From: Asterochloris sp. CNOR1
Lineage: Eukaryota > Chlorophyta > Trebouxiophyceae > Trebouxiales > Trebouxiaceae
Assembly: GCA_963969365.1 (NCBI GenBank)
Contig: OZ017758.1
Coordinates: 1,178,001-1,242,000 of the forward strand
Direction: 5' to 3'
DNA: 64,000 nucleotides
Below the pieces are notes generated by a model. That model was given only the letters and a program-made list of their open reading frames with translations, did not search any database and was not told the DNA's origin. A program made the position numbers and the translations under genes. This document shows, piece by piece, positions 1,414-57,500 of this stretch. The first letter of the stretch is position 1. Each line of letters opens with the position of its first letter.

Positions 1414-4400
1414 CTAGTCAGGGGATGCACTCTGTTGTTCTTGGTGTTCTACATCATCAAGCAGGGGCTCCTTGGAGCCTTCATCTTGAGAAGAGAGTGA
1501 ATGGATGTCATCGCCCTGAGTCTGCACGTGATCTCCAACAGCCAGTCGTCGATAGTCTGGTGCCTTTCTTGCCTTTACCATGCCCACCAGGAAGAGCAGG
1601 GCTGCCAGCAGCAGAAAGAGGCTGCAGAAGGCCATGCTCAACCTGCATCATTAATGCGCCCTCAGGCGCCTACAAGCTGGTAGTAAGCATGATGCATGGC
1701 ATTGGCCCGACTGGCAGTCTGCCCGCGCAGTGATCGGTGCACATCCAACTGTCAAAGCTAGACAAGAGTGCAGAGCAGAGAGCATCAAACACAGCAGGCA
1801 AGCGCTGTGCATGGAAGTGACAAGCTGCACTGTCGAGGGTGTGGCCAGCGGCTGGCTGCTCAGTGACAGGACTGACCTCCAGTCATGTAGCCGGCTCTGC
1901 AGCAAGCTCAGCGCTGGTGCGCTGGGAACATCTCCCAAAACGTGGATGGTGATGAGCTGCATGCTCATCGCAAAGGGGCGCAGCAGGGGTGGCACTGACC
2001 ACAGCACAATCGCATTTTGGGGGGCCTGCAGGCGCAAGTTTAAGCTACACGAGAGTCACACAGGCAGAGCCCGGAAAGTAATCACAGATTACAACAATAT
2101 GCCAGCAGAGGTGCGAGGGTGCCAGTGTCCGTTCAAATCTTGCCACCTCTGCAGCAAGGTGCTAAGCAGCTCATTCAAGTGCTCACCCCAATGAAGAACA
2201 GTCCCAGTTGCCCCAGCGCAAAGATGGAGATGAAAGCCATCAGGCTCCGTGCAGCGCCAAAGGCCAGCGTGAGGCAGACACACCTGCACAGTGATGGGAA
2301 GGGTGAGCTCAGATGGCCAACAGGGGTGGGAGTGACAGCAGAGCTTCCCTAGCAAATGTCACAGCACATGCAGCTGCCAGCATGCCATGCTGACTGTTTT
2401 CAAACCCACTGCAAGACCAGGTACGCTGCCCCAGCCTGCCCCATGTGCAGCACTCCTTCATGCAGGCCATGCAGATGGGCTCTCATGCTCCTGCCTCATG
2501 CTGTCCACCCCAACCAGTTACACATCTGTGCAGCACTCCTTCACGCTGATCAGCAGCAGTGGCCTGGCGCCCGCGCCGGCGACGTACTGCATCACCTGGC
2601 CTGGTGATGCTCAGCTGCACCACAGGCTGGCTTGTCCCCCAGCCCCCAGCGCTGCAGGCTGATACCTGGCCTCAGCCTGCACCCGGCCTCCGCCTGCACC
2701 CACAGTCCCCGTGCAGCACAACACAGCAGTGGCCATGGAGGTGCCGGATGCTGCTGCAGAAAGCCAAAAGGCACCCAGCAGACAGCAGGCAGGGCCGGCC
2801 CCCTGCCTCACCCTGCACCCACGCCCCATGCGCAGCACTGCATGGCGTTGGCCATGGAGCTGCCCAGCCTGTCCAGCACGACGCCCCCCAGCAACGTCCC
2901 CACCACTCCTGTGGTCACGGTGACTGCTCCAAAAAGGACGTCTGCCTCCGCAGCCTTGAGGTCAAACACTTCCCTTCCAGCCTTGGGCCCATAGTAGGCA
3001 AAGGCTCCCAGGACGCCTGCACACGGGGCCAGCGGCATGCTCGGCTTGCAGGATTGCGACAGGCAGAAGCAGAATGACACCTCGCGCACTGCAAGAGCAC
3101 AGGAGCACTGACAGCTCCGGGAGTTGGCCCTCAGGCTCAACAAGCACAATCCTTGCAGTCATGGAGATCAGAGGCAGGTGGCAGCGGGGCGTGAAAGCTG
3201 TGCAATGCTTGCACAGAGTGAAATCAGGTGCTGCAGCTGTCGGCAAGACTCCCACCTGCAGAAGATTGATTGATGGCAGGTCCAGCCATAAGAATATCAC
3301 CTAAACCGTTGGTACAGAGCTGTTGGACGCAGGACGAGCTGTCACCTCAACTGGGTGTTTAAGGACCCACTGCGAGATCTGCCAGGTCACCTGTGTACAC
3401 TGCAGAGCCTACAACTGCCAGTGCATACACTGGGTGGCTCCAGATGGTGCGCTGGTCTCGCAGGAAGCTTGCGATCGTGCTGCCTGCTCCCTCGGGGCGG
3501 TCACGCTGGTCTGGATCTGCAGGCGTATGGATCGCCAGTCTGCACTTGACTCCTGTGTGTCGTTGCCACATGCTTGTGCTGCATGCCAAAGCCTTGCTGG
3601 GGAATGGAATTAACGTGGAAGCCAGCAGAGCCTGACTGGACAAGTGATTTGCTGCTGCTGCAGCCTGCATGGTGCAGGCGAGCAGACAAACGTCACAGTG
3701 AGCTGCCTGAGCCCATGCAGGGTGTAGGATGTTGCCTGCGCCCCAGCCAGCAGCAGCAACGCTGCCGGGCCAAGCTGCCCCTCATCTCGCAGGTCTGCGC
3801 TTGCATGTCACCCACTAGCTGCAAGCCTAACCCAGAGCTTGCGCAAAACTTCCTTTCAGAGCATACATGTCAGGCCCAGCGCTGGCCTGCAGGGGCACAG
3901 TGGTCTGCAAGGGCACCATGGCTGCAGAATGCAACAGGACGACATCGCACCTGTCGGCTTGCCCTTGAGGTCCAGTGCTCTCCCAAAGAGGCACAGCAAC
4001 GCAAAGGGCAGCATGGCTGCAGCCTCCAGAAGGAAGCCAGCTCGCCAGCCCAGGGGCCCTGCTACTGCGCCCCCCAGGATGTAGCCTGCAGGGCAGGACT
4101 GGCCAGCATGGGCATGCAGCACTGGCAGAGGGCTCAGAGGGGCACCAATGGCCTTAGGGCATGGGCACGCAACCACCAGCAAAGGGCTCTTGGCAACGTG
4201 TTTGCTCATGGCTCAGCAGATGTGAGCAGCATCATGAGACCTGCAGGCCCCTCAGCTGCCCTCTGCAGATGGCCCAAAGCTGAGATGCACTCCAGCTCTG
4301 AAACGACGTCGTACTGTTTGAGTCATCAGCTGGTGTAGTTGCAGTGCTGCGGCTGCTCACCCGCGGCATACCCGACAGGGATGCACAGATAGAAGGAGGC

Positions 4401-7038: not shown

Positions 7039-7285
7039 CTGCCTCTGGAGGGGGCTGTGCGGCCGGCCTGCAGCATGAGGGAGAACACTGGTCAGCTGCT
7101 GCCAGCAGAAGCACTCACAAGAGGGTCAATTGGTGGCGACAGATCTGCCTGGATGAGACGGCAGACACCGAGCAGCCAGCATTAGTCCCTTTGCAAGCCC
7201 ACTCACCAGCAACTGCAGGTGTTGAGGCCCCTTAAAAGGTCAGTCATGCCCCTAAGACTCAAGCAAGCCAGCCCCAAAGACGGCT

Positions 7286-11769: not shown

Positions 11770-14700
11770 TCAATCGTCGTTCACTTGCGGCTTACTTGCC
11801 AGAGCCTGCTTCTGGTACCACTCCACCACCTGGTCAGCTCCGGTGGCCTGGTCTGCGTCTTTGTCATCACGTACTCTTAACAAGCGAGGGAAGCGTATGG
11901 AAATGCCCTGCACACGGGCTGTCAGGTGGGCCCACTGCATCGCTTGACAGGCACGTGCAAAGCTGTGATGCTCACCCTTGCCTCAGACAGCATTCCATAG
12001 GCAGCCCTGTGCACAGGGCTGATGGACAGGTCTGCCGCCTTCACTTCCCACACATACTTGGCGTCAAACCAGACATCGGGCTCCAGCCCTTCTCCCCAGC
12101 TGCACACAGCAGGGCACGGCAGTCAGCTGTACTGCCAGCGAGTGCGCTACACTCGGCAGGACTGCACAGCCAACTCTTTCACAGGACCCAGCACTGCGGG
12201 GGCTGCAGCACTGAGCCCATAGCAGGTTTGGGGAGTACTGGTCTGCAGCAGGCTGAGCTGCAGTCTGGTGCTGTGACAGCCACCCTGAACACACTGTGCT
12301 GGCCTGTGGCAGGGATGCAGTTCAAACATGTTTAGCCAGCTGCAGGCCCTTGTTCAGTGCAATTGTCCATGTGCGGCTGCCGCAATGCCAGCCTGGCCAG
12401 TGCAACCAAGTTCTGCTGAACAGTGCAGCAATGCCTGCACCTGTAGTAAGAGTGGGGCTTGCTGATCTGGTGGGGGTTCAACTGCTCTGTCAGCTCCTTC
12501 AGCCTCTCCTCAGAGAAGCCCGTCCCAATTTTGGAGATGGTCTGAAACTCCTCAGCCTCTGCGTTCCAGATGGCCAGCAGGTAGGCACCATACACGCCAA
12601 CACGCTTGCCCCTGTAGGCAGAGCAGACATTACGCTGGACAGTGCGGGCTGAGCCTCAGCATCTGCTGAACCCTGCTACCAAGGGGCTAGCATGCTTTTC
12701 CCTGCAGGCTGTGCATGTGCTGTGCTGAATGACGCTGGATGTTGCGGTGAAAGCCTCAGCCTCTGCTGAAACCACATGTCAGGCAGCCAGCAGGCAGGTG
12801 CCGTACGTGCCTTGAGCAAGGGACAACACCTCTGCAGTGATAGGCACTGGAAGGTGCAGCTGGCCCCCCGCAGGCAGAGCATGTTGGGCAGGGCTGGCAA
12901 GTGGGCCTGGCCGCAGCTGACCAGAAAGGAGCGACCTTCGTGTCCAGCAGCCCTGACCAGTACCCGGCAACATCTGCCTGCCGAGCGCAGGAGGCTCCTG
13001 CTGCATGCATGAGACCTGCTGAGTGACCACCCAACAGTGCAGCACCATAACCTGAGTCGAACCCAGGGACAAGGCCTGCTTGCCATGTCACACCCCAAGG
13101 GCACCAAAAGGCATTCCCCCATGCCCAAAAAAGCCTTCTCCTGCAAGCAGCAGCAGCAGAAGCTGCTGCGCGCTGCAACCCAGGATTGCCCCAGACCCCC
13201 AGCTGCGGCATGAAGCACCATGTGCCAGGACAGCCCCATGACCTCACTTGCCATGCCACGCCCCAATGGGCACCAGGTCAAAGGTGTCCCCCACGCCTTT
13301 GAGGTAGTCCTTCTTCAGCTTCAGCCAGTGCGCGCTGCGCTTGCTGGGCTCGTAGGTGCTGTCCAGGGTCTTCACGATCAGGCCCTCAGTGCCATGCTTG
13401 ACAGCATCATCCAGAAAGGTAGACAGCTCCTCCGTGTCGCGTGAGGTCTGCAGCAGCAGGCTGGTGAGGTTGCCAATCGCAGATGTCTGCAGCAGGCAGG
13501 CTGGCATGACAGGCTGAGCAAAGCAAAGTGTGCAACAGGCATACTGGCAGGGTCGGCCAAGCACAGGACATCTGCCACAGGCAGGCAGGCAGCTTAGTAT
13601 ATGTGTATCTACCATGGCCCTTCAACACAAAACTGCCAGCACTATGTACAGGCGCCCCAAGGCCAGGAAGTCAGGCAAACCCTGCCTCAAAGGGCAGGTC
13701 CATTGGCTGTCTGTTCATGGGACCTGGCATGCTGCCCAGAAGCAGCTTGGCCTCAGAACAGAACAGCTCACGCACTCTTTGTTGGCTGCCTTGCAACATG
13801 TCACGCCTGTTAAGAGGAGATGCAGACAGCGCGCAGCCAGATTATAGGTCCCTCAAAGTGCAGGCGGGCTCACCTTGGCCTCTGCAAACAGGAGCTCCCC
13901 TTCCTTCTCTGACAGGCTGTTGTACAACAATTCGCGCCGCTCGGTCAGGGGGCGGTCCACCAGCACCTCCCCGTTCTGGTAGAGGCAGTCAAAGGCGTAC
14001 AGGCAGACCTGCACCTTGATGTCTGCCACCTCCACATCCTTACGCTTGCGTGTGCTCAGGATCTGCAGAGCGGAATGCCGTGCAGTGTATGCTTTGTGTG
14101 TGAAGGGAAGGAATGCTTGGTATGATGAATGGATTGCAGCGTGGTGTAAAGCACGGAGAAGAATGTGGATCGGACCCCAGTGTGTTGTGAGGATGGTGTG
14201 GCCAATGTTCCTACAGCCCCAGGTCTTCAGTATGCTCAGCACTTGCAGGAGTAACAAACACTGCTCTTCTGCCCTCTTGCGCTTGCACGTGCTCAGGTCC
14301 TGCAGACTGGAATCAGTGCATGTATGCATTCCCCTGTCCTTCAGTGTGCTCAGCATGTGCAGGAGTAAAGAACACACCGTAATTCTGCAAGACAGTGTGG
14401 ACAGATGAGCAGGGGCTGCTCCTGCATCCTTGCAAATGTGCAAGCTCAGGACTGGCAGCGAGAACTACAGTATGCTGCAGTGGGCAAGCAATGGCAACAT
14501 GAGCATGTGGGGTTGAGATGTCTGCAGCCATCTGGGGACCACCTCAGAGAAAGCAATTATTTCATGCACCAAGCAACAGGCCTGTCCAGGGAGCCTGGGA
14601 GGCACCTAGGGTGAGAGTGCTGCCATCTGCCATGAGGCATCAGTGTCCCCGGTGCGGTTTGGCCGCAAGCTGATCAGGAAGGGCATGCTCCTCATGGCGG

Positions 14701-17700
14701 CCAGGTCAAGGCAGCAGGCAACCAGCAACCCCAAATTCCCCCTAAACTACAAGATCACCCAGACCTGAAAAGGCATGATCTTCTTAGTCTCCCGGTCGTA
14801 GGCCACGCACTCGCAGTCTAGCACCACGTCCTGCACGCCCTCCTTCAGCAGCTGGGGCACCCGCGCAGCCAGATCGGGGTACTTTTGGGTCATGTTCTCA
14901 GAATTGCGGCTGCAGGACACACAGCGTGGTTCAGCATGAGCAGCCTGCGCATATCCTAGCAGCTTGTTTCCCTTCCAAATGTCTCCGTTCATGGTACAAG
15001 ATGCCTCACTCAAGCTGCCTGACTGGGGTCTGCCTCCCACAGCAATCAGCAGAGCCAGGGCAACTGTGCCTATGAAGACTTGCACTGCACGGCACCAAGC
15101 AGCCCCTGACCAGGGCTGACTGGCAGAGGCAGCGTGGGGCTCAGCTGCTCCCAGCAACACCCCACCTATAGATGAACATCTTGCGGTTCTGCGTGATGTG
15201 GATCTGTGCGCGCTCCCCGTCGTATTTGTACTCGCAGGTAAACTCAATGTCCTGGAACTTGTCCAGCACCTCTGACACGCCATTGGTGGCCTTGGCCAGC
15301 ATGGGCTTCACAGGGACACCTACAATGAAGCCCACCCTCTGCTTGAGCTCCTGCAGGCCGCAGCAGCAACAGCATTTGCAACAGCATTTGAACCTTCGAT
15401 ATCTCCTGTCAGCTTCCGGTGATGCAACAAGTCATGCTCTTGCAGGGCAGCAACAGGGTCCACATGTGCTTTACGTGTCTGCAGCAAGACCAGCCTGAGG
15501 TCCACAGGTGAGCCCCAGTGATGAGGTAAGCACCTCTGTGCTTGCATGCCTGCACTTCTGCTGCGCTGATCACACGCACTTGTGCATAGAGCCCTGCCTC
15601 CCTGTTAAGGCTCCCAAGCACCCAGGCATCCTTTGAAAGACGGTGCCAGCCTGTGCAGTCTGGCCCAAGACAATCCTTGCCTAAATGCAGACGCAACCCC
15701 GAGACAATCAAGCGTGTGACACCTGGAGCTGTGTGCAGAGTTGTCAGCTGCAACATACCGCAATGGGGTGCTCCAGCAGCGCAGGCACCATCTGGTCATA
15801 GGAAGGGCACTGACTGTACACATATTTGACTATCTGCGCAGCCTCCTCCAGGGCGCCTGCCAGCTGGTCTGCTTCACTGGGAGCCTGGTCACGCTGGAGG
15901 AGCACTGCGTGCCCCAGCGCCACCAGCACTGTCTGCTCAGCCAGACCGATGCGCAGCTTGCCCTGCAGACATGTAATGCCTTTAGTAACCCTGTTCACAG
16001 TGTGCACCTCTGGAGCACTGTCTGGTACAGGCCACCAGCATAGTCTGCTCAACCAGGCTGATGTGCAGCTTGCCGTGCGGCCAGAGCCACAGGTGGCATA
16101 GGATCACACCTGCAAGTGCCCGCATGCTGTGATCTGGTGAGCCGGCATGCCTGAGCACGCTAGTCCCTCAGCAGAGGGCAGTCACAGCACCAGCGGTGCC
16201 TATCTGAGGCTGCCAGCAGCATCACATTGCTGACATGTGCCGTCATGCAGGCCTGAGCAGCCTGAACCTATTCTTTCAGCCAGAGAGAACCTTCTGAGTA
16301 CACTCATATCCCTCTGAACACACTCTTGCACATCAGCAGGCGACATCTGCAGTGCCCTGCATCATGCAGCTGGCCTTGAATGCAGGCAGGCTCCTCTTGA
16401 GTCAGAGTGCATGTGCCAAGCGAGAGGCCCAGCCCACCATCCAGACCCTGCAGCGCTGCGCAGATGGTGAAATCCTTCTCGCTAGCAGCCAGCAGCTTGC
16501 TCCCACCTGCAGAAGCATGAGGCTGTGATGTGCACGTGCTGCTCACCTGCAGGGCCCGCATGATGTAGCCGGCCTCGTTGTCCTTGCTGGCAGCCAGCAG
16601 CTTCACGATGTGCCCCTTCTTCTTGTCCTGTGACTTGTGCCCCTCTGTGGTGGCGATCAGCTGGAACGTCCTGCAGCATGCAGGGTAGAGGTCAGCAGAC
16701 TGGTGCACAGCAAAACAGCTGTGTCGTGCTGCACAGCAGTCTGAGGCAGCACACACGTAGGACACCGCCATACACACCCTGCTTCCGCAGATGCACCCCA
16801 GATGTGCCATGCGCCGAGAGGCTACTCCCCACATGAGCAACAAGGTGTCCCTCAATGTAGGGACGGCACACAGGGCTGTGTGCTGAAAGTTGGGCAAGCA
16901 GCAGCGATCACCAGCAGGAAGGCGGTGCACGCACTTGAACACTGCACGCAGGGTGAGAGCCTTGGGCTTGAAGAGGGTGTTTTGCTTTGATCGCGCGGTT
17001 GCTGCCACCACCCCCAGGTCCCCCTCCTGCTCATACATCTTCTTGATCTGGGCAGGTGACTTGCCAGTGGCCTCGCCCAAAGCCTGCAGTGCCGCGCGGC
17101 TGAGCCTTAGTGCAGGCCATGAGCGAAATGGCCACCCACCAATGACTTCAGTGAGGGTTCACAGTGCAGTGTATGCAGCTCCATTGATGAGGTGCCTGCG
17201 TCCGGCACCTGTTGCTGGATGCACTGCATCCGGCGTTGCCCATGGCAGCAGGGCAATAGAATGGCTTCACCAGCATCGCTCCATGCTACGCCAGACTAGA
17301 AGAATGAATGTCCAGGTGTTGACGCAGATGATTGCAGGCAGGCTTTGCGCTGCCACAAGGCCACTCCTGCCAGTGACTGGGGCATCCACACCAAGCAGCG
17401 TCAGGGCTGCCCGCCCAGAGAGCTTCCTGCCAGCCGCACCCACCTTCATGAGAATGGAGTCGCCCACCCCCAGCTCCAGTCCCTCATGGGAGGGGCCCAC
17501 CCGGTTGGTGCACAGGTACACCGCTGGCAACAGGTCCTCAGGGGTGGTGGCAATTATGGCACGGAAGGCGTTGACCTACAGGCAGCCACAGCACCTCCGC
17601 TGACATCTGAGCAGAACGCCCTGGTAGCAGACGAGCCTTGCTGCGCAGTCAGGCTGTCTCCATGGCCAAGGGTGTCAGGAAAGCAGGCCTGACCACAAAA

Positions 17701-21897: not shown

Positions 21898-24756
21898 TAG
21901 CGGCGCATGACCTGGGTGTCCGGCATGCCAGCCTGGGCCTGCAGAAAGCCTGACCGGATCTGCAGAGAGAGGGTGTATTCACATCAGGGCGTGGGCACAG
22001 TGGCAGAGCAGAGCTCTGTGCTGAGGAGTGGGGCAGGCAAGGCAAGACTGAAGCACCTCCTCACAAACATATGCCGAAGGCAGCAAGCTAGTCTTCCCCA
22101 AACTGTTTGCGCCTCGTGTGTGCATTAGACACACCTGACCCTGGATATCGTTCACACCGCCTGGGCCTGCTGGCAAAAAGACCGTGGAGTTCCCCTTGTT
22201 GTTGCCCAGTGCTGCAAGGGGGGCAGGCGATGTCAGCCTTTTCATTACAACATTCCTGCTAAAAAAATGCACATGAAGCAACAAAAACGAACACTTGCAG
22301 AAATGAAAGCAGCACTTGCCTGACATGGTGTCAAAGTACTTTGAGTAGTGGACAATTGAGACAGATGTCAGTGGAAGGAGATGGGAGATTGCTTCTGAGC
22401 AAAAACACAACTTGGCCAGACAGACAGGCCACCGGCAGGGAAGACAGCAGGCCAGGCAGGCAAGTCATTCCAAAGAGCATGCAACATGAATCTACCCATT
22501 GGGGAAAAAGGAAGGACACAAAGAGAGGGCAAAGCGGCAGAGAGGGACAACAGAGCCCACAAGCCATTTGCCAGAGCGCACCTGCGTAATGAGCATGAGC
22601 TCAATTACATCCCTTGAGTTGATGTCAGCGACATCAGAGCTAAAGTTGGTCACCTGCACAGCAGCAACACCCAGAAGGATGAGCACAGCCTCCACAAAAT
22701 AGACGGCCAGGTGAGTACTCTGAACAAAACCCGGCCAGGTGAGTACTCGGAACAAAACCCTGCCACTCACCGACTCGCGCAGCCCAGCCACAATTGCCTT
22801 GCGCTGCCTGGAAGTAGAACAAGTGGGTTCAACAGCTTGAAGGGTGCAAAGAGCGCTGCAACAACTTCTGAAGACAACTGCTCTCACAGATGAGCCACCT
22901 GCAGGACCTACAGTTTGTCAAGCAGACTCACCTAGCCACGCCCTGCCCAGCAAGGAATTTTGACTCAGCATCTGCTTCAGCAGCCTGCAGGCACGGACAA
23001 AACCACTCAACGCATCATACATTGTGCTTGACAGGGCAGCCGCCTGGTAGCCACTGAAACTTGTCTGACCTTGATGACCGTCATCTTCTCAGCCTCAGCC
23101 TTCTCCATAGCTGCCTGCCTGCAGCATACTCAGAAGCAGTTGATACGGCTGACAGCCCACTCAAGCAGCAGGGACAGCAGTGGCTGGTTCAGCATAGGCG
23201 AATTACTCTACCTCATGCGTGACGCAGCATTGATCTCGTTCATGGCAACCCTGACCCTGGCATCAGGCTCAATATCAGTGACCTGTAGGCCAGCAAGACA
23301 AGCAGTCAAATGTGCTGTAAGTCACAATAAATCCCAAGGTGGCGCTTAAAACATCATTGCAAACAGGCTGCCAATGATCTCAAGCCGCTCTTGGCAGCTC
23401 ACCAGCGTCTGGATGATGGAAAAGCCAAATGCCGTCATGCTCTTCTCCAGCTGCTCCTTGACATCCTGTGCAATCTCCTCCTTGGACTGCAGACAGCAAC
23501 AACGTCTGTCATGGCCTTCCCACTGGCGCTCATGTGAGCCCAGCCACCTCAATGTCACTGTGGGGCAGCTTGGGTGGCTGACAATCAGCTCAGCAAGGGG
23601 CTGGTTGTGGAAAGGGCTCAGATGACCAACAGCCCCCCCTGCAACTGTGCCACTCACTGTGAAGACATCGTCCAGAATCATCTTGGGGACTGTGGCACGG
23701 ACCTGGAGGGAAATAGAAACAGCAGGGGTTCACGGCCATGTCATTGTTCTCAGTTGTTGCAAAGAGGAAACCTCGGAGAGCAGCCAGGCATCGTTTGGGC
23801 TTGTTTGCACGTACCACATCAAAGACATAGGACTGGATCTGGCTCCTTGAGTCTGTCAGGCGGTAGAAGGCATCATGGATGGCGCTCAGAACAACCTGCA
23901 TGGAATAGCAGGCTGGCACTTTAGAACACAACAGATGGCAGCAATGCTCTGGCAAGATGCGGAGGACATTGATTGCTTCAACAAGCTGAGCAGTTCTGCT
24001 TGAGCGCAAAGGGACCCGTGCAATGTGAAGGCAGGGCTGCAACACCTCGTGGGGAGGTACAGCAACTTTGCTGAGGCAGGGGTGCCTCATCTGGGGCAAA
24101 GATAGTCAACCAGAGCTGTCAGCCTCAGGCAGCATGCCCAGCCAGTTGATATGCTTGCCTGGTACTGAACACTGATCACAATGGTGACAAACCTGCAGGA
24201 GACAAGCAGCAGTATCTGTATAGTAGAACTCTCATGATTGAGCAATCTAAAAAGCCACATCATCGCCTGCCAACTTACACATTGTCCTTAGTCTTGGTTT
24301 CACACCGCACGTCCAGCTGCTGGACACGCAGAGAAAGACCGCCAGCAACAGCGTCACCTGGCACAGCACAAGGACTCCGACTCATCAGTCAGCGTTGACT
24401 GAATCAGACCTGCTGACTGAATGACATGTTTGCGCAGGTGAGAAGTCAAGTTCAGGCCACTGTACCCATGCTGAGACCTGGGAGGGGGCCCAGGTGGCAT
24501 AAAACTCACCAATGCAGCAGCAGATCAAATTGCACCCTGGGTGCGCAACCTTGTTGAACTTGCCGCAGCGCTGCACAATCTGCACGGTGCCCTGTGGCAC
24601 AGCGCTGAAGCAGAGGGCATTTCCCTGCAAGGCAGTAATAACAACAAGATGTTGGTCAGGGCTGCTTTGCAGGCAAGACATCAGCACGCTTGATCATCTG
24701 CAGGAGAGCCCGTCGATCCTGGCACTGGCACAGCAAACCATGCCGGAATTCACCAT
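21898..24756 (-). CDS. HIR: Hypersensitive-induced response protein (SPFH/prohibitin-domain)
   Basis: HIR proteins are SPFH-domain scaffolds that gather at plasma-membrane microdomains. The gene has about 15 small exons. The second (24624-24510) reads [20 protein letters not shown]. It needs an upstream Met, and an ATG at 24756-24754 sits right before a GT donor, which gives MGN, a likely N-myristoylation signal. Another ATG-GT lies near 24742. Later exons match plant HIR in order: [154 protein letters not shown] and a last exon ending PDTQVMRR. The intron 24158-23896 is GC-AG. The start is back to back with ORANGE. Confidence 0.93.
22704..22759. repeat. 28-base tandem duplication in HIR intron
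   Basis: Two adjacent 28-base units differ at one base (22704-22731 and 22732-22759). Each carries CAGGTGAGT, a perfect splice-donor consensus, on the strand opposite to HIR. Confidence 0.9.
23896..24158 (-). other. GC-AG intron in HIR gene
   Basis: The exon ending ISVQYQ is followed by GCAAGC, with no usable GT nearby. The next exon (23895-23815) begins [13 protein letters not shown] in phase 0. The HIR family alignment supports a direct join. Confidence 0.75.
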
Positions 24757-34100: not shown

Positions 34101-37100
34101 TTGGCTGAATGCAGGCGACACAGCTTACAGGTAGGCTGCAAGCGCTTGCACTGCACAGCCTGCCAAGAGTATTCAAGCCAGGCGCTTCCAACTGCATGTG
34201 ACAGGCTGATACTACTAATGTTCAAAGTGCTAGGCGCGATCTGCAAGCAATGTAGTGGGCTACATCTGCTCTTCCCATATGTGACAGATTGAGGTCACAG
34301 CAGCCCAGCAAATAGGTAGGCTGGTGGTGCAGGCAGGACGAGCCAGCAACCTGCCTGTACATCATCATCAGCGGACGCCTCAGGCTGGTGCGGCAAGACA
34401 CCAAGATGAGGCCCTCCATCAGAGTTGAAGAAGAGGTAGGCTGAGGGGTACACAGCTTTCACCAGACATGACCCTGCGCGCTGCGAGCTGCTTGATTGTG
34501 TTGAGGCACCGCGCTGTTGAACTGACATTGTGGACTCCAGCATGGCAAAGGCTGCACTGTGATCAGCTGACGTGCTGCACAGCAAGCCGACTCGACATGA
34601 AAGTGACATGTGTGTGCTATGCATCTGCTCTGGAGAATCCCAACAGCTGCAGCTCATTTACGCAGGTCGGTAGAGGAGAGGCAGTGGGAGCTGTGTGGGC
34701 CATCACTGGAGGCTGCCATGACACCACAGCTCTGTGCGTGCGTGACTCCGAGCTGGTCAGGATGAGCAAGGGCGCCTTTGAGGTCATGTCTGCACGCAAC
34801 CCCACAGCTGTGGCCTCCATGATTGATGGCATGGCAAGACGCCTGGCGGCCGCTGGTGCAGCTCGCTCAAACCCCAACCAGTGAGGCCATAGGGCTGCAG
34901 CAAACCGTGGGTTGCTTGGTCATTGTTGCTCATGTTAGAGCCTGTGCTTTGAAAGCAGGTGGCCGGGGGTCTTAAGGTAATGGAGCTGCCTACAGGAATG
35001 TATGGCAGCACCTGCCTTGAGCAGGAAGTAGTTGCCTCAGGCCTGCACCACCCTGTCACTCCCTGCTGCATCAACCTTGTTCATGGGCTTGGTGCAGATA
35101 TGACCGCTTTGGCAAGTCAGCGGTGCAGTCCAGCACCTCATCTGCCAACTCCCGCGCTGGGCGCAGCGGCAGCGCCAAGCAGGAGCAGACCAAACGCCAC
35201 GACATTGTGACCATCGCTCTGCTGCCAGCAGGTGACCTTGCTGCACCCCGGTGCCACAGCAATATGCGATGAAATTGCCCTGCTGCCTGCATGCATCACA
35301 TCTGCTGGGCTGCAAGCAGGCACGCTGTTTGCAGCTACCCCCTGTGCCCATGATCCCTTCAGCTGGGTATCGGAGCATGGTAGCAGCCATAATGCAGGTC
35401 ACGGCATAGCTTGTCAGTTCTGCCGGGTAAGCGAGCAAGGACTTCAATTAGTGTGTTTCCATAGCGCTACCTGCTGCCTGGCTCAGACCACCCTTGGCAC
35501 CTGCAGGAGTCTGTGCTACCGACCGCCTTCATGCCAGTTCTGCCTCGCAGACCGATACAGACTCCCAGCAGGCGCAGGCGGGTGTGCCTGTGCACGGGCT
35601 GACGGCTGAGGCGCTGCAGGCTGTTGATGCAGCCACACAGGCCTTTGCCCCTGCCACGATGGTGGGTGCAGATGGCACAGACTACCCGCCAGGGAGCGCA
35701 GGCGGCATCCCCAGCACCAGCAGTGCAGGTGAGGGTGGCACAGCCTGCTGTACCCTCTCCAGGCTTGTATGTGACAGGCATGTCGAGGGCTGCACTCCCT
35801 CAGACCACATTGAGCCAGCAAAGGGCATACGTCTCTAACGAGAGCGAAGCTGTAATGGGTGCCAGCAGCTGGGCTGCACCGCTTGAGCAGATTTTGGGGC
35901 GTGAGCATTGCATGCATGCCCTTTCACGGCTTCAGCACACTTATGGCCTCAGGTGGGGCCCCACTCAATGATGGCATGCCCTGCAGAGAACCTGCCAGGG
36001 GGGTCCAGCACGTGGTCAGGTATCCATGGTGGTGCCCCCGATGCAGCCTCGGCAGCGGTGCGCAAGCTGGGCGCAGCCCTCAAGGCCTCCCTGGATGAGC
36101 TGTACGGCACCACGCTGCACCTGACAGCCTCCAATGTGGCATTAACCTTCCCCACCGCCTTTGAGCGGCTCCATGTCTCCTTTTACCGCTCCAAGGTCAC
36201 ATCTTGGATGGCTGCTCAGGAGGAGGAGTTCAGGTCAGCCTGCAGGAGCAACCCTAATGCTTCAGCTCTGGACTGTTGATAGAACAGATTTGAGGGCCTG
36301 CAGAGCATTTGATATCTTCTTCAGTTGGCGGCTTGGCAGGAGCTCTCTCTAAACAACCCGCAGTTTGCACTTGTGTAGTGCACTGGCCACAGAGCGTTGC
36401 AAAGGCAGCTCTGCTCTGAGACGGCGGTGTTTGCACACTGCACAGACACAGAGCGAAGTGTCATCAGGGTTTTTCATACCCTCCTGCTTCATGGTCAGTC
36501 AGCCTCTGCTGTCTTAGGGCTGTAGCACGCACTCGCCAGTGCGAATTCTGCAGAGGTGCTCAAGATGACTGATTTCAAGTGTGCTAAAAGCTACGTGTGC
36601 TTTACATTGCTGACCTGCCTAATGCTGTTACTGGGTGGGTGCTTGCAGGTTCATCCTTTTAGAGGCAGACGCCACACTGACTCCATGGTCCAAGATCTGT
36701 GTGGCGCAGGCCGACTGCATCCTGCTGGTGGCCGCAGAGGAGTCCAGCCCACAGGTGAGAGCTGTGAGCTGCATACACAGCGTATGGTGATTGCTTTGTC
36801 AACAGTGCTGGTTCCTGGGGAGGCACTGCCAGCATCAGCTACAATAATAAGCATTCTGCATATAGTCCTTCTCAGATCAGCGTTCCAGGACACAACAGCA
36901 GCATCAAAAGTGTTGACTTGATGGGGAGTTGTCTGCAGTGGCCCCACATGGCAGCATTGCTCATGCCCCCCTCTACTCCAAGCCACCTCTGCTCTCAAGC
37001 TATCTCTCACGCATCCCAGGCCGCAAACTGGCTGGAGAGCCTGAGGCCCCTTCCTCATGCCCGCCAGCATTGCTGCATGCCCTGAACCTTGTGACTAGAC

Positions 37101-40100
37101 TGGGTGCACCCCAGGCCCCACGGATACATGCCTACCAGCATCATGCAGAGCTCCCTTGACTACCTTCTGCAGATGGGCATGCTGGAGGAGACGCTGGTGT
37201 GGTCCATGCTGCCGCGTTCTGCCTCTGTGGGCAGCAGCATGGGCCAGCAGCCCCCCTCAGACAGCAGCATGGGCGGCGCGCCCCCCAGCAGATCCCCTGG
37301 CCCTACAGGCAGCACCTCTGAGCAGTGGAGCGAGATCTTCCCTGCACTGCCTGACGGCGCTGCAGGACTGAAGGAGAGGGGATGGGCCGCCCACCTGAGG
37401 TCAGCTGAATAGGGTGCAAGGGAGACAAAGTCAGCAGCAGCCGCAGTTGGAGGTGCAGTATGGCAGCTGTTCAGTGATGGCAGGCAGCATCAATGCGCAA
37501 CCTGTGCCAGTGCTGGTATGCCAACAAGCAGCAGTCAGAAGACTTACCAATGGCCATTTGAGTGCAGCTCAAGTGCTTTTGTGTGGCATTACCTGCACGG
37601 CTTCAGCTTGGTGACCAAACTGTCCACTCACTGCACCCTGACAGGTGGACCCTTGTCAAGCTCCCCTGCCAGCACGGCACCTGTTGTTCAAGCTTCTGCT
37701 GACAGGCTGCCCTGATGCGCAGACGAGTGGAGCTGGTCCTTCTGCACAGCCCCTTCACGCAGCCCCAGGGAACTGCGCAGTGGCTGCAGTGCCGGCCAGA
37801 GCTGGCTAGGCACCATCACATCAGGCTCACCCACCCCAAGGTCAGCAGTGTCAGGCTTCTGCCTTGGCACAGCAACTGCACTGCACGTTGGGTGCACGAC
37901 AGAGATGCCATGCCAGTCCTCCGGTGCTTTACATGGGCTGGCAGGACATGCAGACCAAGGTCTGCTTGACCTAACTTGAGGCCTGCACAAGCGGACTGGA
38001 TGTCTGGATCCCCCGCATCTGTGTGCAGGACCTGGCACGGCTGGCGCGGTGGATGGCTGGCAAGGCGGTGGGGCTGGTGCTGTCAGGCGGAGGCAGCCGG
38101 GGCCTGGCCCACCTGGGGGTGCTGCACGCTCTGGATGACGCGGGGTGCCCCATCGACATCGTGGGCGGCACCAGCCAGGTTCGCTCTTGCCTTGCCATCC
38201 AGCCAGCTGGATGCAAGCATGTGATCGCTGCCAGCCCTGACGATGCATTGCTGGATGGTCAGGTCTTCAGCTGTACCTCATGCTGGCATCGTGTTGTTGG
38301 GAGCCCTGCTGCTGGCATTGGAGCAAGAAAGCATGCAGGGGATCAACTGGACAATGCAGGCTGCCCCATACACGTCGCAGGGGTTCTTCCCTGCAGGGCC
38401 CCTCATGCCACCGTTGCCCAGGCAGGACTTGCCCTAAGGGAGCCAGCTCACCCCCCAGATTCCCTTCCGGCATCAGTGCTGCATCTGACGGCTGATGCAC
38501 CCCATAACAGCACTGCCGACCGTGGGATGTCGTCGTTCACTGCGCTGCGCACTCATGCCCTGTCGCAACAGCAGATGTACCATCAGGTGAACACCTGAGA
38601 AGGCAACCCTTACATTGCCCTGCAGGGTGCCTTCATGGCGGCGCTGTACGCTCAGGGACTGCCCTGGGAGCAGATGCACCAGTTGGTGCGCGAGTATGCC
38701 GGCAAGATGAGCAGCATCAAGCATCTCTTCACTGACCTGACACTGCCCATCATGAGCATCTTCAGCGGGAAGGGGTTTGATGACATCATCCGAGAAACCT
38801 TCCGGCATGGTCCTCAGCAGATTGAGGACCTCTGGCTCAGGTGCATTGGATTTGGAGGAGATGGCTGCATGCTTAGATGTGGAAACATAATGTGTTGCTC
38901 AGGCCGTGGCGTGCAATCATGTCCATGAGGCGTACATGTGCAGCAGTTGCGACAGCCTCTCTGCATGAATGCAATCAGGCTGCAATGGGCAAGGTGCCCT
39001 GCCCAGGATGCCTCACCCAGCACTGAGCCATGCCCTGACCTCCCGCCGGCCTGCCTGCCCTGCAGCTTCTTTTGTAACACCACCAACCTGACACGGGGGG
39101 ACACCTCGGTGCACTCTACTGGGCCCCTGGCCCGCCTGGTGCGCGCCTCGATGACCATAGTGGGCCTGGTACCCCCAGTGTTCCACAATGAGGAGCTGCT
39201 GGTGGATGGTGGGGTGAGCATCATACTTTGGGAGAATCAGGATTCTGGCATGCTGAGCATGCACCCATTAGTGGGGTACACTTTTGTGTGCAAAGTCAGA
39301 TGTTCACCCTGGCAGGATATAAGAGGTGCATTTGCTCCAACAAGGCTTAGCAGACAGGATTTCTCCTGCCTGAGCAGTCTGGACTCCTAGAACAGGTGCC
39401 TGACAACAGTCGCTCGTAGCGCTGCACTGCTTGGCATTTCCAATACTCATTGCACGCCAGAAGAGTGCTGCTCTGCATGGCCGCCAACATTATGCTCTTG
39501 CGTGTGCTGCAGTACATGAATAACATCCCTGTCGATGTGATGCGCAGCAAGGGCGTGGACACAGTAAGCTTGCTCATTGGGTGTGCTGCAGACATGTTTG
39601 TGCATAGCTCCCTATGGGCACTCTGCAGCGTGCTGTGTCTCTTCCAGCTTGTGCATCAGCATGACTCAAAAAGGTTGAGCTCGCCCTTGTGAACTGGGGC
39701 CACTTGGCACCTTCCCTCGCTGGCCTGGAACAGCCTGCACATAGCGCCCCTCCAGTTCGCCTGCAATGCATTGTTGCTTGTCATCGTTGCTTCATGCAAC
39801 ACCTCCAGCCTGCTTGCAGGTCATCGTTGTGGATGTGGAGGACCGCGACGACAGCGTGTGGCACAATCTGTCGCCCTTTGACGGCGGGCTGAGCGGGTGG
39901 CGCCTGCTGTGGGATCGATACTGCCCCATCCCTTCCTGGCGCTATGGCCTCAAGCTGCCGCGCTACCAGCAGGTCAGCTGCGCTTTGTTTCTGCAAGGCA
40001 CCGTGAGGCAACACTGCCGTGGGACGGCTCCTCTGTGCTTGGCAGTTGCTTTCAGACTGAGCCAGCGCTTCTGCAAGCCTTCGTGCGGCAACACTGCTGC

Positions 40101-42782: not shown

Positions 42783-45700
42783 TTACATGCGTGCGCCACC
42801 ACCGAGATTGATAGTGTCCCGTACAACCTGCAACCAGGCTCAGGGGCTCAGCACCAGCAGTACATGTGCACAGACAGGTCAAAGGGCTTCCAGCACCGAC
42901 AAGGATGACTGACCAGCACGACGCCAACTGCCATCAGGAGAAGCAAGCCAGAAGCCATGATACTCTTCTCAACTGTCTCGTCCAACTTCTTGCCTGCAGC
43001 AGGGGTGGGGGACTTATGAAGGCTGTACTGCTAGCTGCAAAAATGCCAGCAAAACAGATTTAGACTCCAGTACCACCTCTCAAAGCTTCCGCTAGAAGAA
43101 GTGCCATGTAGCCGCCATCTAGCGCTGGCAGTGGCAGCGCGTTAACCACTGCCAGGTTGATGTTAACAATGGCTGCAAACTGGAAGAGGCCGGAGATGTC
43201 GGCCCGCGCGACCTCAGCACCCACTGCCACGATGGCAACTGGCCCAGACACCGACTCCGCTGTCTTCGAGAAGTTAGTAAAGATCTGGGTAAGTCCTGCA
43301 CAGGCATGAAACGGAAGCTTGACTGCCCATTCTCTCCTGGGTGGGCAGCAGAAACAATGCTGGAGGCTCACACAGCAGTTGTGCAATAGGCTAAGCTCCT
43401 GGCGACTTGTTGGAGCACCCTTGCTCCGGCAGGGGTGCATGCTTCAAGCAGGCCAAGCACGCGACAGCTTGCTGGGGCGTGGATGCAATTTAAGCAGGCT
43501 GGGCTTCTGTTGACTTGCTGGGGCATGGGTGGAGGCTTGATAAACGCTCAAAATCCCAACAAGAGCAGACTTTTGATACGCAAATCGTTTCAGATGTCCT
43601 ACCCCACTGCTGGCTGTGATACCTGACAGCCTGCAGCTCACGCTGCCCCTACTCAGCCCTCCAGAGGTGGGCACATTCTGCAAGTCGCAGCCTCTCACCA
43701 GTCACCACTGTTGTCGTGAGCTTGCCAAACTCCCTGGCTGCCAGCTGGACAGCCGCCAGCGGGCCATCTGGCTTGACCTTTGCTACCTTAGCATTGACAG
43801 CAAGCTGCACGCCTATCCTGCCTGTGCCGTCTGGGGCCTCTGCCACTGTAACAGGGATTTCTATAGCCTGGCCAGCTCGTTCCACAAGGAAGCTCATGCC
43901 TTTCTTGGGCCGGTCCCTGCATAGACAGGCCAAGAACAGGTACAACACCAACAACTGCCAGCAGGAGGCCCGGTCATGTCACAGCACTGCAGCCCACCAA
44001 GCACTAGTCCAGCAACAGCTAGCATCACGCTGCAGGCAAGCTGAGTTCAGCGTTTGAAAGCGATCTGGCCACTCCATGGCTCCTGCCAGTCTGTCCAAGC
44101 TCCAAGGCACCCTGCCGCTCAGCACTGCCGCCACCCCTCAATTGCAGACAGCAGTCTGGGACTCACTTGATGGCGTTTACAATGTCATTCACCGCAGTGG
44201 CGCTGGCCCTGATCTCCTGGCCCTGCACCTGCGTGACCTTGTCACCAGGCTTGAAGCCCGCCCTGTCTGCCACCGACCCCTGAACCACCTCTGGGATCCT
44301 GACCCCAGGCAGGAAGTTGGTTTCAATTACGCCAATCGTGCTGACCTGCAGCAAAGGTGGCTGGGTGTGTCAGCTGGTGCGGACATGTGCTGTATTCTGC
44401 ATGCTGCAGCTCGTGCAACAACATGCACACTCACTCAAGCAAGCGCACCAAAGGCGCTGCGTTTGTCACTCGTGTGCCCACCTAGGTCAGCAGGATGGAC
44501 ATGGCAAAGATGCAGGTGGCAGAGGCGCAAGCAGGCATTAGACATCCTGATGAGCAAACTGGTTGAGCACATGTTCTCCTAATACTGCGTGACCCCTGAC
44601 AAGCAGCCATTCAAATGCTGCTGGACCCACCTGAGGCCCCATCCAGCCATGACGAATGGACAAGCACTAGCCCCAGTCATTGCACACCTGCCCTGCAGAC
44701 GCTCACCTGGGTCAATAGGATGGACATGGCAAAGATGCAGTTGGCAATGATGCCGGCACTGATGACCAGTGCACGGTCCTTGATGGGACGGTTCTTCAGC
44801 AGGTTTGGGTCGTCCGGGGGGAATTTGTCCTTCAGGTCTGGATCGTCATCAGGGAAGCCCACAAAGCCGCCCAGGGGGATGGCTCGGAAGGCATACTCCA
44901 CCTCAGGCCCCTGCAGCAGAGGGCGCGTCTGAGTGGGACTGCTGCAGGCAAAATGAGGCCCCATGTGGAATGCTGCCTTCCCAGATGGTGGGTTGGATGC
45001 AGCCATTCCCATACCCAGGGGATGGCTGTGAACATGGTTTTGCCAAAGAACCGCGCAGCAATGTCCCACAAAAGCTGTCATCTTTGCCACGTCTGCGAGA
45101 ACCTGACATACTTCTTCAGTACACGTGAACGACGGGAGGTCTTGGGCTGAGAACATCAAAGGCGCTGGGTTGGCAGCTGCCCCACAGCTGCATGACGGTG
45201 CTCCGCCCATGAAGCATTGCATGAAACAGCAGGCATGCTCAAATTCATAGCATGGCTGGCAGATGTGCAGTACACCGTGAGCAGTACATTGCTAGAGGCA
45301 GTGCTGAGGCACTCCCAGCCTCTCAGTACATGCAGCTGGAAAAAAAGCCAGTTGCCCAGGTGATGGTCAGTAACAACAAGTGTACAGGCCTGGGCTAGCC
45401 CTGCTTGCAAAACAGAATCTCAAATGGAGTGCCACACAAGAGTGCGCTTGCCCGCCATCTGTGGAGGGCTACTTTGGCCGGTGCTCTGTGAAGCCAGTGC
45501 TGCCGACTTGCCTGCCATTTGAGGAGGGCTGGCCCAAATCCAATGCTGAATTTGGTGACGTGGATGTTCTGAAGGCGGGCCGCCACAAAATGGCCACACT
45601 CATGGATGGCCACAATGGCTGCCAGCACGCTGAGCGCCCCCACAGTGGAAGCAGGCCCAGATATATCCAGCCCCGACCCTGCAGGGGGCACGGAGCAGCA

Positions 45701-54100: not shown

Positions 54101-54198
54101 GAGGTTACCAGCAGCCAGCATGTGGGGGACACTCTCAAGAAGCAGACGCAGCAGACTTTGAGTGCGCTGGCTGGCACCTTACTGACAGGATCTCAGTG
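51150..54198 (+). CDS. Helical-repeat (ARM/HEAT-like) protein, unrecognised family
   Basis: Plus-strand exons with good borders encode Leu/Ala-rich helical repeats. They are about 51150-51280 (VEWLPLAATALKALLC), 51568-51642 (EAERQALMQEADAMMAALDR), 51700-51745 (RKHREWGYEALAQ), 52075-52178 (DLFRDLQDGIASGKRMAGVV), 52259-52390 (FVRLKGFKALTRVLLRGSDP), 52629-52747, 52890-52949, 53262-53417 (DEELSCACAQALLAMLALHP), 53712-53874 (MRLAELLVVTLSHLMSG) and 54026-54198 (ending LSALAGTLLTGSQ). The pattern fits an armadillo or HEAT solenoid of the kind found in Hsp70 exchange factors and adaptor proteins. I cannot assign a family. The 5' end is uncertain. It converges on DGAT2. The last exon has a diverged copy just downstream. 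Confidence 0.55.
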
Positions 54199-54345
54199 AA
54201 GCCCTATGAAAGGTCTACACAGGGACGCATGTTTACAAGGAAGCTGCCACCAGCAGCCAGCAAGAGGTACAGCAGACACAGCAGACACTGAGAATGCTGG
54301 ACAGCATCCTGATTACAGTCTTTCAGTGAAGCCCTTTCACAAGAG
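54092..54345 (+). repeat. Duplicated terminal exon, second copy just downstream
   Basis: The last exon (54092-54198: HQEVTSSQHV..QQTLSALAGTLLTGSQ stop) has a second copy at 54226-54325. That copy reads VYKEAATSSQQEVQQTQQTL, then RMLDSILITVFQ and a stop in the same place. Similarity runs past both stops (AGTGAAGCCCT). Confidence 0.8.
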
Positions 54346-54552
54346 AAGGCATAACAGCAAGCTGCCCCTTCAGCAGTCTCTAAGTTCAACACATAAGCTA
54401 AATGAATTGTGATCAAACGCAAACAAGCTAGCAACGGGCAACAAACTGGTAGGGTGTGTGCAGGCAAATATGCCTGCTGGGCTGCAATGCGCAGCCAGTG
54501 CAAAGAACTGCAACAGTGATGGTAGTAACATGCCTGCTGTTCAGCTGAGGGT

Positions 54553-57500
54553 TCAGAGGACTTGCAAGGGCTTGTTGTCATAGCCTGCAATCTTCTGGTA
54601 CTTGTGATAGAGGTCTGTCATGCTCTCTATAAACAGGCCCTTGTACTTTTCCACCTCAGCCTCATCTGGGTGGGCAACTTTGGGCAGCCTGATGGGCTTG
54701 CCAACGGCCACAGTCACACGGACCTGCACCAGTGCAGACTGAGTCCTCAGAGGAAGCTAATATTGACCAGCTTGAGAATCTGCTCAGTAACACATACACA
54801 GGGAGTACAGCAGATAGATCTGACATTGTAGCTCTGCATCTGCAGTGCAAGACCATGCTTGGCCTTCCAGCAGCTTCCATTGGGCAGGCAAGGTCACCTG
54901 CTCAGCCGGGAGACACAGGTGCCCTAAGGCAGCGCATGCACGGCCTTAGTGGCCCACAGCAGCAAGAGCATGCAGCCATCAGTATGAGACAGCCCATTTC
55001 ACTTGACTCAGTGCCCAGAACTTCAGGTCCAAGAAGCACCATGGGCAGGGGATGGGCAGCCTCCAGTGTCCCCACAGCAGCAGGATTTCTGCACCGTGAT
55101 AAAAAAGATTGACCTCTGCAGCACAAGGCCAAGCAGCTCACCGGACAGGGGATGGGCAGGCCCCAGCGCCCCCACAGTAGCAGGGGAGCGCAGCCAATGG
55201 CGCGGGAGATGCGCTCCACCAGCCAGGTGGGCACCAGAGGAGGCCCAGGGCGCCTGCAAACACAACCAGGAGAGTACCACACATGACTGAATGTGACTTT
55301 GGTCTGTCACAGTACCACCATGAACGGATGGGTTTGGTTGCCCATCTCCAGAAGTCAACAGCTGCTCGCAGCTGCATTGCAGTTGGATGAAGGGGCTTAC
55401 CGCCAGTGGAACATTTCAGACTGGCCGAAGGCAAAGGCTGGCACCAGAGCTGCACCATGCCTGAGCCCCATGCGGATGAACCCTGCTCGTTTCGTCAGGT
55501 AGATGGCCTCCTTGTCTGCAGCATGGGCAAGTCAGCACGTTCTGAGCCTGCATGCACAGCAGCCGCATGTGACTGGGCATGCTGTGCAGCTGCCCGCAGC
55601 TCACCTCGTAGCTTGCAAGCAGTCCCCAATATGTGAGAAGTCGCGTGCGAGTTTGACTTGAGGTGCCACCCCACACAGCCTGGCACTGGACACACGCATG
55701 CAGCCAGGAAGACACCCACCTTCCTCTGGTACAAGGCGCCCACCTTCCTGTACCACCAGGTTGCTTGGCAATGCACCTTCCTCGTATCAGCAGCTAGTGC
55801 AAAGACAGCTGCACAGGCGACAGTGGTCTGATGCACAGCAGGGCACGCTCTGCTACTGTTCTTGCATGTGCAACCGCCTGTCATCAGCTTTGGTGTCTGG
55901 CCGGTAATGGTGAGTTTCCTCCTTGGACAGCAACCCCTGTGCGCCACGTGCTTACATGTCCTCAGTGGGGGCCGTGTGCTCACCTCTCTCCATGAACAGC
56001 ACCTCCTGAACGCCGCCTGGGCAGATGCCCACACTAGTCCCCGCAGCCAGCATCTGGTTGAGGTTTCTACGGTCGGCACTGCGCACCCCCATGGCGTACC
56101 AGGGCAGCCGCGTGGCTGGCAGGTAGAGCGACTGCAGCCAATCAGAGAGACTGTAGTTCAGACCCAGCCACCTCCGTGGCTTGTTAGGTCAGACATACAT
56201 CTGGCAGGCAAGCAGGCAGCCAAAAGTGAGCAGACAAGACAGGAAATGCAGTAGAGCTGTGCAGGTGAAATGGCTTGGCAGGCCAAGCACATGCACCAGA
56301 GCCCTCCAAATCAGCACGCAAATGCAGCACTGTAATTGCAACACCTTTGCTGGTCAGGCGTCCTGCTCGCAGCATTGAATGGTGGTGTGAGGGGTTTGCC
56401 ACGGCTTTGAAAGTGCTTGCACACAAACGTCTTCCATGATGAGGAGCATGCCCTCCTTCATCGCTGCAGCATGCAGTACAGGCAGAAGGTGCTTCCTCTC
56501 CAGGCCCAGCTGTGAAGCTCACCAGGGATGAGGCGACTGTTTTGATGTCTTTGAGCCCCCGCGGCAGGTCATCGTTGAAGGCATTGAACACACCCGGGAG
56601 AGCAAAAGGGAGGGTTGAGTGCGGCTCAAACCCTGTAGTCCAGGTAGAGCAGTATAAAGGGTAGGAGGAGCCTCAAAGGTCAGCCACAGCCACAGCCACA
56701 TGCAAACCCAACCCAAGCCAAGTCCTGGTCAGGAGCAGAAAGCACCGAGTCCTCTTCTGCTGAAGTGACAATACTGAAATTGTGTGCAGCGGAAGCTTGC
56801 TTCTGCCTGCAGACTGCAGGCTTGAGGATGGTCCAAGCCAGGTGGATATCTGCTGAAGCTGACCCTGTCCTGCCGGGTGATACCAGTGGACAGTCCTCTA
56901 GGGTCAGTCTGGCTGAAACCCCCCGAAATATGAGCGGAAGCCCCAAAGCTACCAACCATGATGGATGCTGCTGAGATGGCTCACATTGTCTAGGCACGTT
57001 CTCTCGGCAGGCTGGAGGCGTTAGGAGGGCAGTACCTCAGGTGCTACCCACCTAGAAGATAGGGGCCCTGCTCCTCAAGTGCCGCGCGGTCCTCATACAG
57101 AGTCTGCAGCCAAACTGCTTAACTGCACTCTGCACCGCTCTGCTCTTGAGGCTGTTTGGGCAGCTGAGCTGGGCTATGACCCGGCGTCGCAGCAGGCCGA
57201 CTCCAGGAACCCAACTGTGACTTATTGTGCTCCAGCACAGGGCACTGTGCAGCAGTCAATGGGCACAATGCAGCTGCCAGGGCACAGAGCCAGGCCCAGA
57301 GCAGGCCAATTGAGGAGCCCACCTGGCACTGGTTGTACTTCAATGTCTGCACGATGCAATACTTTGTCATAGCATACATCCATTTGGGGGTCCACTCGAC
57401 GGGCCAGATCACTTGGATCACCTGCAAGCAGGAGCTGAGGCTCCTGTGAAAAAGACAACACGGAGTTCTTACAATGTAAAGTGTGGGGGCTGCCTGCAGT

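Follow-up and report, generated by a model that had tools for sequence, protein, structure and literature searches.

Intronic echoes of exon edges in the green alga Asterochloris sp. CNOR1 as probable remnants of border-spanning tandem duplications

Introns of the green alga Asterochloris sp. CNOR1 carry short, decayed copies of the edges of neighboring exons. We followed these copies, hereafter called echoes, from a window of 64,000 nucleotides (nt) of DNA on contig OZ017758.1 (positions 1,178,001 to 1,242,000 of the forward strand; assembly GCA_963969365.1) into further parts of the genome. Echoes far exceed what controls yield, are direct rather than inverted, usually include the splice site, and keep to the side of their own exon, copies of an exon's 3' edge lying downstream and copies of its 5' edge upstream. 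They are very probably the remnants of small head-to-tail tandem duplications that spanned an exon border, and through which existing introns grew.

In the scenario we favor, staggered break ends would be filled in and then end-joined, giving a head-to-tail tandem duplication with a unit of ~70-250 nt, one breakpoint of which would be exonic and the other located in an intron or untranslated region (UTR). Such an event would leave two donors or two acceptors at one border, and the protein would stay unaltered only with the original site in use, i.e. the first of two donors or the last of two acceptors. In surviving alleles, the extra exon edge and its splice site would end up intronic on their own exon's side, where the echo would decay via substitutions and indels, the real exon presumably being conserved by purifying selection. 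The outcome would be a longer intron with pseudo-exon sequence and no new intron. One exonic and one outside breakpoint, with the protein kept unchanged, would explain why the copies contain the border, are direct, and lie on their own side.

The analyzed DNA comprised 314 kb without N: on contig 13 the window and the 100 kb adjoining it on the left, plus 100 kb from contig 4 and 50 kb from contig 1, all taken from an intron-rich genome of 56.4 Mb in 21 contigs; counts below refer to this sample unless the window is named. Genes were modeled by a self-trained hidden-Markov finder from sequence signals alone, which returned 109 genes and 739 introns (median 184 nt) with sharp splice signals (donor CAG|GTGAGC, acceptor CTGCAG|G), or 108 genes and 725 introns when echoes were masked.

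Comparison of the window with itself by BLASTN (both strands, E ≤ 1e-3) yielded eight pairs, all direct and spaced by 100-237 nt, and an ungapped scan (lags 8-2999, score of at least 20) found 21 direct and no inverted pairs there. Across the whole sample, the ungapped scan gave 142 direct pairs at that score (68+65+9, not deduplicated) versus four inverted ones. A gapped banded scan over lags of 30-600 detected 146 pairs at a score of at least 20, against a single one in a 330-kb cross-locus control drawn from contigs 13 and 4 only, and 109 against none at a score of at least 22. When introns were compared with 100 nt of flank on each side (687 of the 725 introns, those below 60 nt or near block ends being excluded; for exons shorter than 100 nt the flank extends past the exon), 52 of 1374 comparisons matched at a score of at least 18, and 50 of the 687 introns had at least one match. 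At the same score, 0.51 matches were expected from the exons of other genes, and neither distant exons of the same gene nor reverse-complemented own flanks gave any. A preliminary description of the window had reported intronic echoes of exon edges and proposed this very comparison of introns with their own flanks; the excess of self-matches establishes that the echoes are real. Because the cross-locus, other-gene, same-gene, and reverse-complement controls are all near zero, chance matches in CAG/CTG-rich DNA are refuted as the source, despite the abundance of CTGCAG-like words (the acceptor consensus), and the excess is confirmed as genuine.

The pairs are not a peculiarity of one locus, as had first been supposed, since they occur on all three contigs sampled, if sparsely on contig 1: 20 in the 64 kb of the window, 51 in the neighboring 100 kb, 68 in the 100 kb of contig 4, and seven in the 50 kb of contig 1. 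Per 10 kb, the density is 1.4 on contig 1 (1.00-1.05 Mb) versus 4.3 and 6.8 in other blocks. All-against-all BLAST of the sample (E ≤ 1e-5) returned 16 local direct matches, one local inverted match, and no far ones, and the 56 echoes at exon edges described below, used as queries within the same 314 kb, gave 107 local hits and ten far hits of 16-33 nt (best E 4e-4). A dispersed family, introners, and transposon-derived introns were considered and rejected, the all-against-all comparison having returned no far match within the 314 kb.

Classing pairs by the raw gene models had assigned, among 104 pairs, 33 to the exon-exon class (14.4 expected), 38 to the mixed exon-intron class (36.7 expected), and two to the intergenic class (11.8 expected). 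As echoes themselves get called exons, this scheme was replaced by a masking test, in which each copy was masked in turn and the fall in gene-model score was measured. Among the 146 pairs scoring at least 20 (47 of 193 pairs, scoring below, are left out), 75 have one exonic copy, 26 have two, 41 have none, and four are ambiguous. The echo adjoins its exon in 67 of the 75, and in 56 of these 67 the copied stretch reaches the own-side exon edge (within 6 nt), the far edge being reached in none and 11 pairs being internal. This holds in both directions: downstream echoes touch the 3' edge of the exon in 31 of 38 cases, and upstream echoes the 5' edge in 25 of 29. Random placement of 67 pairs with the same lags and lengths predicts 21.9 at the own edge only, 13.8 at the far edge only, 8.2 at both, and 23.1 internal, corresponding to binomial P values of 1.5e-17 for the own-edge count and 2e-7 for the absence of the far edge, with the pairs, on 45 exons, being not fully independent. 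The earlier assertion that each echo sits on its own exon's side is thus upheld. Of the 56 edge pairs (the eight non-adjacent and 11 internal pairs being left out), 54 have a copy that extends at least 1 nt beyond the exon edge. The 56 pairs are spread over 45 exons in 24 of the 99 multi-exon genes of the sample. Among gap-free pairs with one exonic copy, division of the lag by 3 left remainders of 0, 1, and 2 in 6, 20, and 9 cases, respectively (small numbers, uncorrected).

In one case (54141-54335), the own-side rule holds where coding sequence ends and the 3' flank begins, with no splice site involved, which suggests that it applies to coding borders generally and that the copying does not arise from splicing. 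At exon-intron borders, the splice site is usually inside the copied stretch, supporting the earlier proposal of duplication across such borders. Lags of 70-130 nt are the most common, and longer ones extend to ~400. Edge pairs show a median identity of 0.77 and a median match/lag of 0.47, and the match covers more than 80% of the lag, as in nearly adjacent copies, in 18% of the 55 edge pairs with a lag of at least 60. Introns matched to pairs are long (median 405.5 nt versus 192 nt for all introns), which in part reflects that an echo in a short intron would escape detection.

All seven window genes for which echoes had been claimed hold at least one edge pair, ten in total: one each in the Spinster, ORANGE, M50, DGAT2, and helical-repeat genes, two in the ligase gene, and three in the NTE gene (two of them on one exon). 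The pairs, with a noncoding one that lies beside them in the ligase gene, are as follows (positions within the window):
2794-2864, minus strand: Spinster-like gene (MFS_1 in Pfam), exon copy, 3' end of exon 2812-3016 plus 18 nt of intron; 75% identity, lag 119
2675-2745, minus strand: intronic echo of the 3' end of exon 2812-3016, downstream, from the alignment
14039-14095, minus strand: DNA ligase I, exon copy, start of exon 13874-14062 plus 33 nt of intron including the acceptor; 84% identity
14276-14330, minus strand: intronic echo of the start of exon 13874-14062, upstream, CTGCAG retained, from the alignment
14217-14261 and 14331-14375, minus strand: noncoding ligase pair in the same intron, near echo 14276-14330; lag 114, 82% identity
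15899-15971, minus strand: DNA ligase I, exon copy, start of exon 15759-15962 plus 9 nt of intron; 81% identity
16012-16083, minus strand: echo of the start of exon 15759-15962, from the alignment
26058-26128, plus strand: ORANGE-like gene, exon copy, 62 nt of intron including the acceptor plus 9 nt of exon 26120-26426; 77% identity
25946-26017, plus strand: ORANGE-like echo, upstream, bearing TGCAG|GGTGCTGAG, from the alignment
32868-32972, plus strand: NTE-like gene, exon copy, start of exon 32905-33087 plus 37 nt of intron; 67% identity, lag 185
32683-32786, plus strand: echo of the start of exon 32905-33087, upstream, from the alignment
32639-32670 and 32891-32923, plus strand: additional short NTE-like pair overlapping exon copy 32868-32972, from the alignment
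33497-33544, plus strand: NTE-like gene, exon copy, 3' end of exon 33358-33537 plus donor GTGAGTG; 79% identity
33729-33776, plus strand: echo of the end of exon 33358-33537, downstream, GTGAGTG intact; lag 232
44701-44746, minus strand: M50 protease gene (Peptidase_M50), exon copy, 3' end of exon 44707-44941 plus donor GTGAGC; 89% identity
44476-44521, minus strand: echo of the end of exon 44707-44941 (TAG|GTGGGC), downstream; lag 225
55124-55184, minus strand: DGAT2 (DAGAT in Pfam), exon copy, 3' end of exon 55142-55253 plus 18 nt of intron; 79% identity
55024-55084, minus strand: echo of the end of exon 55142-55253, downstream, GT at the donor position lost, from the alignment
54141-54205, plus strand: helical-repeat gene, exon copy, last predicted exon including the TGA stop; 74% identity
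54271-54335, plus strand: echo past the stop codon, itself carrying TCAGTGAAGCCCT, from the alignment

For DNA ligase I, where five exons had been said to have echoes, two exon edges pass the test for one exonic copy, the other ligase pairs being noncoding on both sides (12629/12729; 13443/13482 and 13446/13528; 14217/14331), exonic on both sides by the masking test (13079/13247), or, with a score of 18, under the cut-off of 20 (16344/16544). The readings of exons 13874-14062 and 15759-15962 align to DNA ligase 1, and a hand-spliced query gives an alignment with DNA ligase 1 chains (E 1e-104) that runs across both of the exon starts with echoes. The unmasked finder called an exon (16036-16109) over most of ligase echo 16012-16083. 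Beside exon 13248-13486, a ligase intron bears a degenerate array (13443-13592; lags 39 and 82), a further layer of duplication. As to the remaining genes, Pfam searches with nine window proteins backed the MFS, DNA ligase, M50, DGAT, patatin, metallophosphatase, and Band-7 readings, and among these nine there was no match for the ORANGE-like or the helical-repeat protein. The names Spinster, NTE, ORANGE, and helical repeat come from the preliminary description, and we assume them here. The NTE-like model (28139-38437) has one in-frame stop in its joined translation, either a finder error or a real lesion.

The echoes had been portrayed as a continuing series, some matching at nearly every base. 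Such matches exist only as short stretches: at least 90% identity is reached in nine of the 146 pairs, all 20-38 nt long and covering 16-50% of the lag, and the best edge pair within the window has 89% identity over 46 nt. Continuity is contradicted by the lack of fresh copies with units of at least 60 nt. Were the rate constant and decay neutral, young full-length pairs (at least 85% identity across more than 80% of the lag) would be expected to make up 28-41% of the exon-echo pairs detected and 30-46% of the noncoding ones. Among pairs with a lag of at least 60, we found none in 55 exon-echo pairs and none in 31 noncoding pairs (one edge pair and ten of the 41 noncoding pairs, with a lag below 60, are left out), the chance of which at the lowest predicted rates is 1e-8 and 2e-5, respectively. 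Tandem Repeats Finder (TRF) likewise reported no tandem array of period 60-500 in the 314 kb. Fresh arrays of shorter period (10-59) do exist, with 10 of 48 being at least 95% identical. Simulations of tandem duplication and neutral decay without events younger than 0.15-0.2 substitutions per site fitted the observed medians, and did so best with longer indels, which gave an identity of 0.77-0.78 and a match/lag of 0.47-0.54. The visible pairs hence look old, few if any units of at least 60 nt seem to have arisen recently, and the duplication looks like a past wave more than a continuing process. Tentatively, a wave of ~100-nt duplications might have been intense beyond ~0.15-0.2 substitutions per site of neutral divergence and then stopped, e.g. 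upon a change in break repair. Exon edges would then serve as slow clocks, and echoes as a fossil record of a mutational state and of intron growth.

A possible alternative, compatible with tandem duplication and concerning only its age, is that duplication went on at a constant rate and young copies were collapsed in the assembly. The absence of TRF arrays of period 60-500, when 10 of 48 with period 10-59 are at least 95% identical, would fit such a collapse; against it speak the absence of N from the sample and the length of the contigs met (2.6-4.5 Mb), which resembles that of long-read assemblies.

Several observations weigh against a tandem origin. Eight of the 75 pairs with one exonic copy are non-adjacent, and 11 of the 67 adjacent pairs are internal to the exon; the placement null demanded that the echo be at least 80% intronic, of which 10 of the 67 observed echoes fall short; and the 50 kb of contig 1 hold a single edge pair, a regional difference in density. 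With a constant rate rejected, the model requires either a past wave or lost young copies, and the best step models give a noncoding/exon-echo ratio of 0.15-0.30, below the observed 31 to 55 (opportunities unmatched). Pairs of at least 90% identity are short and match over no more than half the lag, which fits young tandem copies poorly. The similarity of flanks past the alignment, assessed in 46 of the 56 edge pairs (the other ten had too little room), was 5.91 on the intron side, against a null of 5.90, and 6.30 on the exon side, higher than in all 200 shuffles (null mean 5.80, maximum 6.27). The intron side, where the tandem model puts any residue, was not above the exon side (P 0.77). However, tandem copies simulated at 0.2-0.5 substitutions per site score ~5.8-6.5 on the intron side, so that the flank test has little power at such an age and cannot decide.

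Dispersed local copying, in which an intron break would be repaired by templated insertion of a nearby stretch never positioned head to tail, could account for matches that span a median of only 47% of the lag, for intron-side flanks devoid of residual similarity, and for the limited coverage of the lag, at most half, by pairs of at least 90% identity. Yet it predicts far-edge, internal, and inverted copies, of which we saw none and 11 among 67 adjacent pairs and four against 142 direct ones, respectively, and the short matches are reproduced by simulated tandem decay. We therefore regard dispersed copying as improbable.

More doubtful still, indeed very unlikely, is a role in alternative splicing for which the echoes would be retained as functional exons or splice sites. 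In favor of such a role, 25 of the 56 echoes possess the dinucleotide together with a site score above 3 (donors 11 of 31, acceptors 14 of 25), and the unmasked finder calls some echoes exons. Yet the splice dinucleotide is retained in 29 of 56 echoes, versus ~34 expected from identity alone; of the 56, 13 contain in-frame stops and 19 carry indels within their exonic portion; and splicing at the echo site would alter the length by a number not divisible by 3 in 40 of the 56, chance being two thirds. Mismatch rates by codon position (0.217/0.212/0.277 in pairs with one exonic copy) show a weak third-position excess, though this test discriminates poorly because pairs with two exonic copies give nearly the same ratio (0.277/0.248/0.364). 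Over the 56 edge pairs, there was thus no sign of echo retention, nor of an active removal of decoy sites, and the sequence lends no support to the idea that echoes feed alternative splicing. In these pairs, 468 transitions stand beside 464 transversions, and CpG sites differ more often (0.39 versus 0.23). Decay resembling repeat-induced point mutation (RIP), considered because young copies are missing, was rejected, with no C>T excess of the RIP kind over the 56 edge pairs.

The preliminary description had also allowed for intron gain. In the AGGT model of Rogers and Hellsten, introns arise by segmental tandem duplication near AG|GT, with a lag equal to intron length (PMC4974935, PMC3443670). 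The echoes share with this model tandem duplication near AG|GT, but differ in that the lag lies within 6 nt of intron length in none of the 56 matched-intron pairs (a different set from the 56 edge pairs). That the introns themselves were born from exonic duplication hence seems barely credible, even if the similarity of exon ends to intron ends among 535 introns is raised (9 versus 1.4 expected at a score of at least 12; 3 versus 0.0 at 16 or more): the four best of these matches are 14-20 nt out of register, and the other arm shows little excess (4 versus 1.7 at 12 or more). The lag never equaling intron length, together with the out-of-register matches, argues for growth of existing introns instead of gain.

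Small intragenic tandem duplications, some with splice sites, are commonly observed in eukaryotes, according to later papers (Gao & Lynch 2009, cited in PMC4974935 and PMC3443670). The echoes resemble this internal gene duplication in being small tandem copies across exon-intron borders; its focus, as cited there, is on new introns, whereas here existing introns lengthen and the second splice site decays. In a potato RNA-dependent RNA polymerase (RdRp) gene, a tandem duplication is reported that crosses an intron-exon boundary and creates a new intron, whose donor derives from sequence that was exonic before (PMC4974935). The potato case and the echoes have in common one intronic and one exonic breakpoint, but the echoes keep the original site and add no intron. 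With respect to origin, break-end fill-in by Pol alpha-primase/CST followed by end joining yields small tandem duplications in mammalian cells, and small tandem duplications are the most common short (<100 bp) insertions in human, according to one report (PMC8355091). Fill-in duplications and echoes are alike direct and local; fill-in is shown there in mammalian cells, and the breakpoints in the alga are too old to read. Vaughn & Bennetzen are said to have described, in 2014, natural insertions in rice via such small tandem duplication.

In a literature search covering titles and the beginnings of abstracts, we encountered no report that describes echoes of exon edges across the genome of a green alga. 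Events of this kind are already known; what looks distinctive is how plainly the whole layer can be read here, and its apparent end. Small tandem duplications are known as a source of insertions and occasionally of introns, but what usually becomes of them at exon borders is difficult to observe. With one copy held by purifying selection, old duplications would remain visible and follow a simple geometric rule. Echoes may therefore offer a measure of intron growth by duplication and a means of dating changes in a lineage's duplication rate. They also carry a warning for annotation, as echoes resemble exons and some are called as such when a gene finder is run unmasked.

Two minor observations concern splice-like words. 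A 28-nt unit, present in 2.2 copies (94%) at 22704-22765 of the window, includes CAGGTGAGT, which resembles a donor on the plus strand, and this array sits where the predicted gene runs on the opposite strand. Throughout the sample, acceptors are nearly invariant TGCAG|G (T 91%, G 92%, and C 98% in the three positions preceding AG) with a faint pyrimidine tract, and a CTGCAG palindrome results at many introns.

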